Assembly (NCBI RefSeq): GCF_017744135.1
Contig: NZ_JAGHQU010000006.1
Coordinates: 62,001 to 126,000 of the forward strand
DNA: 64,000 nt
Source: Endozoicomonas sp. G2_2
GTDB taxonomy: Bacteria; Pseudomonadota; Gammaproteobacteria; Nevskiales; Salinisphaeraceae
Direction of reading: 5' to 3'
This document shows positions 30,550 to 39,864 of the stretch, one piece after another; the stretch's first letter is position 1; every line of letters starts with the position of its first letter. The notes below the pieces were generated by a model. The model saw only the letters and a program-made list of their open reading frames with translations, made no database searches and was not told the origin of the DNA. Both the position numbers and the translations under genes were made by a program.

Positions 30550-30661
30550 TGTCCGACGTTTGGACAGCTACGTTCGCATCGATCGATCTGGCACAATCGT
30601 ATTGCCGCAATGCAGCAACGCTGCGCGCCGCGGCCTTTCTCAAAACGACGGGGCGACAGGA

Positions 30662-31195
30662 ATGAGTGACGAGACGCGGATCATCAAGAAGTATCCGAAC
30701 CGGCGGCTCTATGACACCGAAGTCAGCCGCTACATCACTCTGGAAAACATACGCCAGCTCGTGATCCGCGGCGAGCATTTCACCGTGATCGACAAGCGCA
30801 GCGGCGACGACATTACCCGCACCATACTGCTGCAGGTGATCAGCGAACAGGAGGAAGGCGGCGACCCGATCTTTCGTACCGAAGTGCTGCGCAACATCAT
30901 CCGCTTCTACGGCGACTCGATGCAAAGCACGGTGAGCTCCTATCTCGAGCTCTCGCTGGAGTTCTTCAGCGACCAGCAGCAGCAGTTCAAAGACCGCATG
31001 CGTCGGCTTCTGGGCGCGAACAATCCGCTGACCGCCCTACGGGAGCTGTCGCAGTACCAGGTGCCGATCTGGCGTTCGGTTCGACGCGAATTCCTGGCCA
31101 ATCTCAAGCGCAAGGAGCGCGGCGAGGACAACACCTCAGAGGCCTCCAGTGACAACAATTCCGACAGCGCGGGGAACGATCGCGAAAAACAATAG
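30662..31195 (+). CDS. phaR: Polyhydroxyalkanoate synthesis repressor PhaR
   Basis: A 177-residue regulator. The N-terminal DNA-binding region IIKKYPNRRLYDTEVSRYITLENI (from about residue 7) and the accumulation-regulator domain VIDKRSGDDITRTILLQVI are diagnostic, followed by a Gln-rich helix and a hydrophilic Ser/Asn/Asp tail. PhaR represses phasin and its own gene until bound by PHA polymer. No pha synthesis gene is in this window. No good promoter was found upstream; a TGGCAC...TTGC pair near 30589 has 7 bp between the boxes instead of 5 and is not a sigma-54 site. A small RNA gene begins about 75 bp downstream. Confidence 0.95.
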   Translation: MSDETRIIKKYPNRRLYDTEVSRYITLENIRQLVIRGEHFTVIDKRSGDDITRTILLQVISEQEEGGDPIFRTEVLRNIIRFYGDSMQSTVSSYLELSLEFFSDQQQQFKDRMRRLLGANNPLTALRELSQYQVPIWRSVRREFLANLKRKERGEDNTSEASSDNNSDSAGNDREKQ

Positions 31196-31236: not shown

Positions 31237-31265
31237 TTGACTAAAGTCGTAGATCGCCCTATACT
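31237..31265 (+). promoter_or_regulatory. Sigma-70 promoter of the candidate small RNA
   Basis: TTGACT (31237-31242) and TATACT (31260-31265) are separated by exactly 17 bp. Each hexamer matches 5 of 6 consensus bases. This is the best promoter seen in the window and no coding gene lies downstream of it before a terminator. Confidence 0.75.
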
Positions 31266-31271
31266 GCACCG

Positions 31272-31364
31272 CAACATCAGCGAACACGCTGATCAACCGA
31301 ATCTCCTCCGAAAGGCCTGACGGCCTTTCTCGCACTTGCCCCCTTACCCTAGGGGGCTTTTTTT
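31272..31364 (+). ncRNA. Candidate small regulatory RNA (about 93 nt)
   Basis: Downstream of the promoter are three stem-loops: 31276-31282 with 31287-31293 (ATCAGCG/CGCTGAT, AACA loop), 31310-31317 with 31322-31329 (GAAAGGCC/GGCCTTTC), and an intrinsic terminator 31338-31344 with 31351-31357 followed by seven T. Between stems 1 and 2 is an unpaired stretch containing CTCCTCC (31303-31309), complementary to a GGAGG ribosome site. There is no ATG-initiated frame in the transcript. Such architecture is typical of trans-acting, Hfq-type small RNAs. I do not recognise a known family. The transcription start is estimated. Confidence 0.65.
31338..31364 (+). terminator. Intrinsic terminator of the small RNA (and possibly phaR)
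   Basis: GCCCCCT pairs with AGGGGGC over a 6-nt loop, followed by TTTTTTT at 31358-31364. Confidence 0.85.
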
Positions 31365-31421
31365 ATGCGCGACATATACGTGCGACCGGCCAAAGCGTGA
31401 GCCGGTCTAAACGTCGCCCAT

Positions 31422-31489: not shown

Positions 31490-33610
31490 TTAGCCTTCCG
31501 CCTGCTCTTCTTCGGCCAGTTCCTTCATCGACAGGCGCACACGGCCCTGACGGTCGACTTCGAGAACCTTGACCTTGACAACCTGGCCCTCGGACAACTC
31601 GTCGCTGACCTTCTCGACCCGATGGTCGGCGATCTGCGAGATGTGAACGAGACCATCGCGCCCCGGCACGAGGTTGACGAAGGCGCCGAAATCGACGATG
31701 CGCACGACCTTGCCCTCGTAGACCTGCCCGGCCTCGATATCGCGTGTGATGTCCTCGATACGCTTGATCGCCATGTCCGCCGCGCTCTTGTCGACCGCCG
31801 CGACGTGGATGGTGCCGTCATCTTCGATATCGATGCTGGCACCGGTCTCCTCGGTGATCGAGCGGATGGTCGCGCCACCCTTGCCGATTACGTCGCGGAT
31901 CTTGTCCGAGTCGATCTTGATGGTGAAGATGCGCGGCGCCCACTCGGAGACTTCCTGACGCGGCTTGTCGATGGCCTCGGACATCACGCCGAGAATGTGC
32001 AGCCGGCCTTCCCGGGCCTGTTCCAGCGCCACTTCCATGATCTCGCGGGTGATACCGCCGATCTTGATGTCCATCTGCAGCGCGGTCACACCGTCGGTGG
32101 AACCGGCCACCTTGAAGTCCATGTCGCCGAGATGATCCTCGTCACCGAGGATGTCGGTGAGCACGGCGAACTTGTCGCCTTCCTTGATCAGGCCCATGGC
32201 CACGCCGGCCACCGGCGCCTTGATCGGCACGCCGGCATCCATCAGCGCCAAGCTGGTGCCGCACACCGAGGCCATCGAGGACGACCCGTTGGACTCGGTG
32301 ACTTCCGAGACGATACGCATGACGTAGGGGAATTCTTTCTCGAGATCCGGCAGGACGCCCATGATGGCGCGCTTGGCGAGCTTGCCATGGCCGATCTCGC
32401 GGCGCTTCGGGCTGCCCATGAAACCGGTCTCGCCCACGCAGTAGGGCGGGAAGTTGTAGTGAAGCATGAAGGGATCTTCATACTTGCCTTCCACCGCGTC
32501 GATCATCTGCGCGTCGCGGCCCGTGCCCAGCGTGGACACGACCAGCGCCTGCGTTTCGCCGCGGGTGAACAGGGCCGAGCCGTGGGTACGCGGCAGCACG
32601 CCGGTCTTGATGTCGAGCTGGCGCACGGTGCGGGTGTCACGGCCGTCGATGCGCGGTTCGCCTTCGAGGATACGCGAACGCACCGTCTTCTTCTCGAGTG
32701 CGCCGAGCGCGCCCTTGACGTCGTCACGGCTCCAGCCTTCCTCGCCCTCTTCCACGGCGAGCTCGGCAACCACGGCTTCCTTGATCTCGCCCAGGCGCGT
32801 GCCACGATCCTGTTTGTCGGCGATCTGGTAGGCGGCCGTCACGTCGTCCTTGGCGACACGCTCGACGGCCTGCGCCAGGGTTTCGTCGGTGGGCGCGGGC
32901 TGCCAGTCCCAGGCCGGCTTGCCGGCTTCAGCGGCCAGCTTGCCGATGGCGTCGATGGCGGCCTGCAGCTGCTCGTGGCCGAAAAGCACGGCGCCGAGCA
33001 TGATCTCCTCGGAGAGCTGCTTGGCTTCGGATTCCACCATGAGCACCGCTTCGCTCGTCCCGGCGACCACGAGGTTGAGGTCACCGTCCTTGAGCTGGCT
33101 GGCGCTCGGGTTGAGGATGTACTCGCCGTTGGCATAGCCCACACGCGCGCCGCCGATCGGGCCGGCGAACGGCATGCCGGAGATGGCCAGAGCCGCGGAC
33201 GCCCCGATCATGGCCGGGATATCGGAATCGATTTCCGGATCGACCGACATCACGGTCGCCACGATCTGCACTTCGTTATAGAAGCCCTTCGGAAACAGCG
33301 GGCGGATTGGCCGGTCGATGAGACGGCAGGTCAGCGTTTCCTTCTCGCCGGGACGGCCTTCGCGCTTGAAGAAACCGCCGGGGATCTTGCCGCCGGCGTA
33401 GGTGCGTTCCTGGTAATTGACGGTCAGCGGGAAGAAGGCGGCGTTCGGCGCGGCTTCCTTCTTGCCGACCGCCGTGACCAGCACGACCGTGTCGCCCATG
33501 CTCACCTTCACGGCGCCATCGGCCTGGCGCGCGATCTCGCCGGTTTCGAGGGAAACGGCGTGCTCGCCGAACTGGAATGTCTGCTTGCTGGTGACGGTAA
33601 CGTTGCTCAC
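31490..33610 (-). CDS. pnp: Polyribonucleotide nucleotidyltransferase (PNPase)
   Basis: A 706-residue phosphorolytic 3'-5' exoribonuclease and degradosome component. Two RNase PH domains (about 1-225 and 315-550, the second with the active region [19 protein letters not shown] and [18 protein letters not shown]), then KH ([16 protein letters not shown], about 565) and S1 ([13 protein letters not shown], about 625). The start is a GTG at 33610 giving the family N-terminus; it has AGGA 9 bp upstream. A TTG 27 bp further upstream is less likely. A terminator-like hairpin separates it from rpsO, as in E. coli. Confidence 0.97.
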
Positions 33611-33634
33611 TAGAATTATCCTGTGTCTTTCAAA

Positions 33635-33671
33635 CAAAAAAGCGCCCGGCTCGGTTTACCGAGGGGCGCTT
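33635..33671 (-). terminator. rpsO-pnp intergenic terminator/attenuator
   Basis: On the minus strand AAGCGCCC (33671-33664) pairs with GGGCGCTT (33647-33640), with an inner CTCGG/CCGAG stem and a TAAA loop, then a T-run. Part of transcription presumably ends here after rpsO and part reads on into pnp. Confidence 0.8.
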
Positions 33672-39804: not shown

Positions 39805-39864
39805 CGCTGCCACCCGAAATCGTTCGTGTTGCGTTGCACCGGCAAAACCGACCCTGTTGCGCGT

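Follow-up and report, generated by a model that had tools for sequence, protein, structure and literature searches.

The gap between phaR and the convergent gene pnp in the window, by which we mean the whole 64-kb stretch of DNA analysed here (positions 62001-126000 of contig C30 in the genome under study, G000), probably contains a stand-alone gene for a trans-acting anti-Shine-Dalgarno small RNA (sRNA) of about 93 nt, which its sequence features suggest is kept off by PhaR until PHB granules titrate this regulator away. A free-standing small RNA had been proposed at this position by a sequence-only reading; the PhaR-type operator, which that reading overlooked, likely gives the gene its role.

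In the mechanism that we propose, PhaR would occupy, in cells without PHB, an operator lying over the -10 box and the start site and thereby keep the gene off; an operator covering -10 and +1 would prevent initiation. Once PHB granules bind PhaR, the operator would become free and the RNA would be made. Its exposed UCUCCUCC would pair with strong Shine-Dalgarno sequences of the form GGAGGAG and block the translation of selected mRNAs, probably with Hfq, for which a gene is present in the genome. The likely targets would be genes of carbon uptake and oxidation, perhaps including a thiolase gene with a PhaR-type box, with intake being trimmed after storage begins. From sequence we infer the transcription of the RNA, the binding of PhaR, the direction of control, the pairing and the targets. 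Sequestration of PhaR by PHB, with relief of repression, is described for S. meliloti and other bacteria (PMC12542648, PMC9049629). Some genes are also activated by PhaR (PMC12849132, PMC12542648), and hence repression as the sign of control over the sRNA is put forward as a proposal.

Anatomy of the locus

The element occupies positions 31237-31364 of the window, and the features of the locus are as follows:

30606-30614, + strand: PhaR-type box CGCAATGCA 5' of phaR, from a box search; possible autoregulation
30662-31195, + strand: phaR, PHB-responsive regulator, with PF07879 and PF05233 matches
31237-31265, + strand: sigma-70-type promoter, TTGACT-17-TATACT, from a sequence scan, 10 of 12 consensus positions matching
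31265-31276, + strand: PhaR-type operator TGCACCGCA(ACA), by consensus fit, running from the last T of the -10 box over the inferred start site
31272-31364, + strand: predicted small RNA of about 93 nt, from the fold and a match to covariance model R2; start site inferred from the -10 box
31276-31293, + strand: hairpin 1, AUCAGCG-AACA-CGCUGAU, from the predicted fold; varies across the family
31303-31309, + strand: unpaired CUCCUCC, anti-Shine-Dalgarno motif, from the predicted fold and conservation
31310-31329, + strand: hairpin 2, GAAAGGCC-UGAC-GGCCUUUC, from the predicted fold and compensatory changes across the family
31330-31337, + strand: linker UCGCACUU, in which UCGCAC is invariant in 37 aligned sequences, all from the order
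31338-31364, + strand: intrinsic terminator, a 7-bp stem at 31338-31357 followed by T7 to 31364, from a terminator scan and the fold
31490-33637, - strand: open reading frame that we take, from its protein sequence, to be pnp; convergent neighbour

The near-consensus promoter that had been claimed is indeed present, and is the sole match of its kind in the 1.5 kb scanned; shuffles yield 0.3 such matches (sd 0.5), so that on its own the promoter match is weak and not significant. The two perfect stem-loops and intrinsic terminator described earlier are recovered in the computed fold, the 95-nt stretch 31272-31366 having a predicted energy of -38 kcal/mol against -18.9 (sd 2.7) in shuffles (z -7.06, with 0 of 200 as low). 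The absence of a start codon also holds, in that 31272-31364 contains no ATG or GTG and one TTG, and the CUCCUCC reported between the stems is single-stranded in the predicted minimum-energy and centroid structures alike. The sequence features of a trans-acting intergenic sRNA, namely a promoter of its own, an intrinsic terminator and no open reading frame, are thus found together. The element scores 55.3 bits with R2, while the Rfam scan gave no family at threshold at the element, either in the window or in 12 representative loci; its matches in the window are two tRNAs away from the element.

Distribution and conserved structure

BLAST searches with the 141-base element recovered matches in 52 of 61 relatives, and beyond the close ones the matching part extends approximately from CUCCUCC through hairpin 2 to the terminator. 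The R2 model finds the element in 80 of the 85 genomes of the order and in 20 of its 21 genera; those without a match at the cut-off are G010, G014, G016, G345 and G348. Two of these, the small relatives G014 and G016, have phaR, and show neither a PHB synthase nor an RNA match. Lack of conservation among relatives, which the sequence-only reading had named as evidence against itself, is not what we observe. Of the first 30 loci, 22 combine the element with both phaR and pnp (phaR in 25, a pnp orthologue in 25, some loci being cut by contig ends). The genome around the window is Salinisphaera-like: the loci retrieved with its PhaR bear the names Salinisphaera, Solimonas, Panacagrimonas, Sinimarinibacterium, Hydrocarboniphaga and a Nevskiales MAG. 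In a class-wide sample of 274 genomes, where matches with E < 1e-9 were taken further, three families beyond the order also gave strong matches (G097; G171/G287; G197/G309). These comprise six copies in five loci, and two of the copies (L065, L066) adjoin phaR. Some weaker class-wide matches (E above 1e-9) have a layout similar to that of the element.

The model yielded 84 matches. Two were set aside, L130:3023 as a nearly identical tandem copy and L122 as an antisense match of 20 nt, which left 82 for counting; all these counts span related species rather than independent events. Up to five model matches occur in a genome, and tandem and dispersed copies were seen in L130, L126, L127, L147 and L150 and in genomes G333 and G334. 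Beside the main copies, L020, L023 and L029 harbor an additional degenerate one in which CUCCUUGAG replaces CUCCUCC and the -10/operator fusion described below is missing; these are possibly decaying or retargeted paralogues.

Compensatory changes had been expected in all three stems, and this held for hairpin 2; hairpin 1 varies across the family. In an alignment of the 84 matches (77 distinct) that was fitted to the hairpin 2 structure, and hence leans to its own structure, both-side changes are seen at 4 of the 8 pairs of hairpin 2 and 98.2% of the cells pair. Compensatory cells number 11 as against 0.7 in shuffles, none of 500 shuffles reaching that value, and the signal is lost when the partner strand is slid out of place. 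A first MAFFT alignment (A1) was unusable for this purpose, as an inserted A had displaced hairpin 2; its place was taken by a model from 21 uniform copies and an alignment fitted to that model. Searching for the arms in the 82 copies without the fitted alignment recovered the compensated pairs AGAAAGGC/GCCUUUCU, AGAAAGAC/GUCUUUCU, AGGAAGGC/GCCUUCCU, GAAAGGUC/GACCUUUC and UGAAAGGAC/GUCCUUUCA, among others; this alignment-free search found no arms in two of the 82 copies (L137, L140). Hairpin 2 accordingly shows the conserved structure with compensatory changes that is typical of trans-acting sRNAs. For hairpin 1, similarity is confined to the seven aligned Salinisphaera copies, where L006 and L007 display a compensated change from A-U to G-C, and it differs in other genera, so that the three stems are not all features of the family.

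The conservation of CUCCUCC, a form known for anti-Shine-Dalgarno sRNAs, is borne out, with the motif present in 78 of the 82 model-found copies. It is also invariant in the 37 aligned sequences, yet the pattern that selected these required CUCCUCC, and the count of 78 was used instead. When the 78 copies were folded with 60 nt of upstream sequence, the predicted unpaired probability of the motif averaged 0.78, with a lowest value of 0.33 and values above 0.7 in 68% of them. A generic anti-Shine-Dalgarno motif, present in several copies per genome, would also suit an RNA that sponges or mimics a partner of another kind, either a second sRNA or an RNA-binding protein, rather than as a direct blocker of ribosome sites; with the motif so widely kept and mostly unpaired, we hold this to be very improbable. 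The presence of the core in nearly the whole order, the covariation and the retention of CUCCUCC together support the free-standing small RNA gene as the best reading.

A PhaR-type operator fused to the promoter

The sequence TGCACCGCA at 31265-31273 is a near-palindrome that begins at the last base of the -10 box TATACT and overlaps the start site. It fits YGCRNYGCR, the consensus recognised, with AT-rich arms, by S. meliloti PhaR (PMC12542648), and hence has the form of a PhaR-regulon operator. In gel shifts with purified PhaR from S. meliloti, the mmgR promoter is retarded unless its palindrome is changed, and the level of the sRNA MmgR is raised in the absence of phaR (PMC12542648). The operator agrees at 11 of 12 positions with TGCRNYGCASMA, the form of PhaR sites in Bradyrhizobium (PMC6201568). 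Of the sequence TG[N]TGC[N]3GCAA bound by PhbF, the Herbaspirillum homologue of PhaR (PMC3206438), it fits the TGC-N3-GCAA core and not the leading TG[N].

Across the family, YGCRNYGCR occurs within 170 nt upstream of 67 of the 82 copies, as against 9.7 (sd 2.8, maximum 18) in shuffles, and is fused to the -10 box in 61 of 82, as against 0 in 200 shuffles. Anchoring on the -35 and -10 boxes independently of the box gave 67 promoters, in 58 of which the box starts at the last T of the -10. A loose promoter pattern (TTGA[CT]-N16-20-TANNNT) is found within 170 nt upstream of 67 of the 82 copies, a count that stands without a shuffle control. These unanchored and independently anchored counts were used in place of a box-anchored conservation profile, in which the anchor pattern itself fixes many of the 'invariant' positions. 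The six extra-order copies do not possess the fusion, although two of them adjoin phaR.

These data bear on the view that the hairpins belong to phaR, as its 3' untranslated region and terminator, and that a small RNA would arise there only as a by-product of read-through. The terminator scan found no terminator-like site between the phaR stop codon (31195) and the element, so read-through from phaR into the element is also possible, and phaR lies at 25 of the first 30 loci. Among the 76 copies from the order, phaR is situated just upstream in the fetched stretch in 58 (49 with the fusion), whereas the 18 without phaR there include 12 that nonetheless retain the -10 box and operator; three of the other six come from genomes with no phaR match. 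The conservation of hairpin 2 and CUCCUCC moreover goes beyond the needs of a terminator.

Of the 61 relatives, phaR (PF07879) is missing from four, G001, G009, G010 and G013, two of which are incomplete (G009 87%, G010 81%). G010 has neither a phaR nor an RNA match. The other three keep the RNA behind promoter-like sequence, and the gene is therefore more than phaR read-through, the alternative that the sequence-only reading had itself singled out as damaging. Weighing this, we regard the read-through explanation as distinctly unlikely. All four of these genomes have a PHB synthase match, so that the control of PHB may differ in them.

In each of the three genomes that keep the RNA without phaR the PhaR box is absent, and phaR is present in all seven Salinisphaera genomes with the operator at the RNA; yet three genomes with phaR (G002, G006, G008) also have no operator there. 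G006 and G008 show no box at the sRNA, thiolase or phaR, and G002 retains one before phaR. The thiolase gene of the genome under study is preceded by a PhaR-type box like that of the sRNA. Searches for it gave 63 matches in all, of which 30 loci were read (13 from Salinisphaera and 17 from outside). Among the 13 Salinisphaera orthologues, a box lies 71-73 bp before the start codon in exactly the seven genomes that have the sRNA operator. The remaining six have none at that position, G001 showing only an off-position match, at -114. Beyond the genus, just 3 of the 17 orthologues contain a box of any kind in the 200 bp before the gene, which makes this a feature of Salinisphaera. As the species are related, the joint pattern of phaR, box and thiolase represents few independent events.

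A real anti-Shine-Dalgarno sRNA might still carry in its TGCAYYGCAACA block a start-site element, or an operator for a regulator other than PhaR, and have no tie to PHB. Consistent with this, G002, G006 and G008 possess phaR and the RNA and not the block, and a second conserved spacer element, AAGTCGTA, located upstream of the -10 box in 12 of 13 Salinisphaera copies and within 31237-31260 in the window, persists in genomes that have lost phaR. On the other hand, the block fits, fully or nearly, the operator consensus of three PhaR proteins, and is lost in Salinisphaera along with phaR and together with the thiolase box. Such boxes are found in 45 of 57 phaR upstream regions (a few genomes being counted twice), as against a mean of 13.0 and a maximum of 21 in shuffles, and occur in the genome under study before the thiolase and near other genes of PHB or acyl-CoA type. 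We thus view the alternative without PhaR as unlikely, and continue with PhaR as the putative repressor. In five of the six Salinisphaera genomes without the PhaR box, AAGTCGTA is part of a perfect palindrome, TACGA-AAG-TCGTA, and another regulator may therefore act there. Solimonas L046 and L047 have TTGACCGATCGGTCAA at a similar position.

Within the genome under study, TGCANYGCAACA occurs eight times, as against once for the reversed control. Apart from phaR and PhaC, the names of the genes at these sites are our own assignments from reading the proteins: 1) the sRNA; 2) before the thiolase; 3) before a FabG-like reductase; 4) the gap between a PhaC-like gene, with PF07167 at 22.4 bits and below the cut-off, and an aldo-keto-reductase-like gene; 5) beside an AMP-ligase-like gene; 6) upstream of a PQQ-dehydrogenase-like gene; 7) inside a transporter-like frame; and 8) before nusA. 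In the window, the PhaR-type 12-mer TGCAACGCAACA (minus strand, 39827-39838) stands just before what we take to be nusA and after what we take to be rimP, and may be there by chance. No PhaR-type box was found in the 200 nt upstream of the PHB synthase gene phaC, or close before phasin, in this genome.

Related small RNAs and candidate targets

The element reaches the threshold of no Rfam family, and lies outside RF00519 and RF02278 by both score and layout. Its closest analogue is MmgR of Sinorhizobium. MmgR (RF00519 'suhB', alpha-r8, which includes Caulobacter SisA-D) combines an anti-Shine-Dalgarno stretch, a terminator, a link to PHB and several copies in some genomes (PMC12542648, PMC12559287, PMC8401924, PMC7143759), and an anti-Shine-Dalgarno 10-mer is present in four relatives from Caulobacter (PMC12559287). 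MmgR is repressed by PhaR (AniA) and its promoter bears a PhaR site (PMC12542648). A further mark of MmgR is its effect on PHB granules and on the level of phasin. The Nevskiales sRNA is likewise small, with an anti-Shine-Dalgarno stretch, a terminator, multiple copies in some genomes and, as in the 61 fused promoters, a PhaR-type site. In contrast to MmgR, it has an extra hairpin, GAAAGGC/GCCUUUC, comes from Gammaproteobacteria, usually resides beside phaR, and has its putative operator across the start site and -10 box, where MmgR has its own in the spacer that separates -35 from -10; its motif is UCUCCUCC, as against UUUCCUCCCU in the RF00519 consensus. Membership in RF00519 was rejected, the window scoring 17.5 bits and the highest score seen being 26.2 (L010, out of register with the anti-Shine-Dalgarno motif) against a cut-off of 41, and with no match at the gathering threshold in 12 loci.

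RF02278, the Betaproteobacteria toxic small RNA, resembles the element in having CUCCUCC followed by a terminator and several copies per genome, and its members are thought to pair with ribosome sites (PMC7011215). Here too membership was rejected, the score being 16.7 bits against a cut-off of 50, and G000 has no match at E <= 0.001. At that threshold RF02278 matches 82 of the 274 class genomes, only two of them above the cut-off. Many of the matching loci in the class have CUCCUCC-AUCCUCC-UUUGGUGG and do not have the GAAAGGC hairpin of the Nevskiales sRNA, and in none of the 30 examined (L081-L110) was phaR found. These constitute a distinct type of sRNA, with CUCCUCC-AUCCUCC-UUUGGUGG and a terminator, several loci lying behind a TTGACAAG...TAGAATATTAGAAAATACTTACATACTGATT-like promoter. 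A PhaR-type box was noted in 5 of 29 (L082, L092, L097, L102, L106), as against 1.1 with a maximum of 5 in shuffles, the 30th locus having no usable anchor. The rhizobial CCUCCUCCC-loop sRNAs of the SmelA075/SmelA099 type share the anti-Shine-Dalgarno motif (PMC3927594), which they carry in three or four hairpin loops, whereas the Nevskiales sRNA has it in a single linker between hairpins. The impression that no sRNA had been described at this locus persists: among the matches listed from open-licence literature, none describes this locus.

A wider interpretation is that PHB granules soak up PhaR and so allow an anti-Shine-Dalgarno sRNA to shut off carbon uptake and oxidation, in a circuit that arose, or was rebuilt, separately from alphaproteobacterial MmgR; we offer this as a tentative idea and lean against it as it stands. 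The genes shut off would include GGAGGAGA-led TRAP solute-binding proteins, a malonate transporter, a PQQ alcohol dehydrogenase and sigma-54 activators. A PhaR operator plus an anti-Shine-Dalgarno sRNA would on this view represent a recurrent design that couples storage to translation. The mechanism proposed at the outset has consequences of its own, as the state of the plastic granules of the cell may through it control protein synthesis. If it is right, nearly every sampled genome in an order of PHB-related Gammaproteobacteria, these salt-loving bacteria and their kin, would have an sRNA under the granule sensor PhaR, mostly in one constant genomic position, and MmgR would gain a functional counterpart outside Alphaproteobacteria. 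Control of translation by storage status would then be testable in culturable Salinisphaera, Solimonas and Hydrocarboniphaga.

With regard to candidate targets, the exposed UCUCCUCC is complementary to GGAGGAGA, which is followed by ATG at 22 places in the genome under study, as against two for the reversed control. Twenty of these frames were checked by Pfam, the short L183 and L189 being left out. Two DctP solute-binding proteins are among them, as are MadL of the malonate transporter, a PQQ dehydrogenase and a cytochrome/solute-binding fusion; two sigma-54 activators, two short-chain dehydrogenases and one universal stress protein also occur, alongside genes of unrelated function. Highly expressed genes often have strong ribosome sites, and the GGAGGAGA-led genes are therefore a list of candidates. 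The ribosome sites with which CUCCUCC could pair are so numerous that target specificity is not accounted for, a point against the proposed mechanism.

Among the start regions tested, the thiolase with the PhaR-type box (-26.4 kcal/mol) and one DctP (-24.8 kcal/mol) give the strongest predicted pairing; in the background, taken from 72 frames of the window that are not all genes, the median is -11.5, the 5% point -19.3 and the strongest pairing -26.1, so that the thiolase is not outside its range. Phasin (-13.2 kcal/mol) and PHB synthase (-11.6 kcal/mol), where the predicted pairing is weak and near background, are unsupported as Shine-Dalgarno targets, and the effect on phasin reported for MmgR is accordingly unsupported here as direct pairing. 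The thiolase was rejected as a target of extended pairing, since the long complementarity is not conserved, other Salinisphaera keeping GGAGG and not its flanks. A DctP gene (L184) shows 12 contiguous complementary bases, read by eye; its extended pairing was likewise rejected, GGAGGAGA being kept in 4 of the 4 orthologues found and the flanks not, with the gene in only 4 of the 14 genomes of the genus.

Two clusters may be mentioned in addition. On contig C22, a PQQ-dehydrogenase-like gene has near it a PhaR-type box (L053) as well as a small gene led by GGAGGAGA (L178). On contig C11, about 35 kb (L170, L171, L172, L173) contain a PQQ dehydrogenase, a cytochrome/solute-binding protein, a LuxR-type regulator and a sigma-54 activator, all led by GGAGGAGA-ATG.
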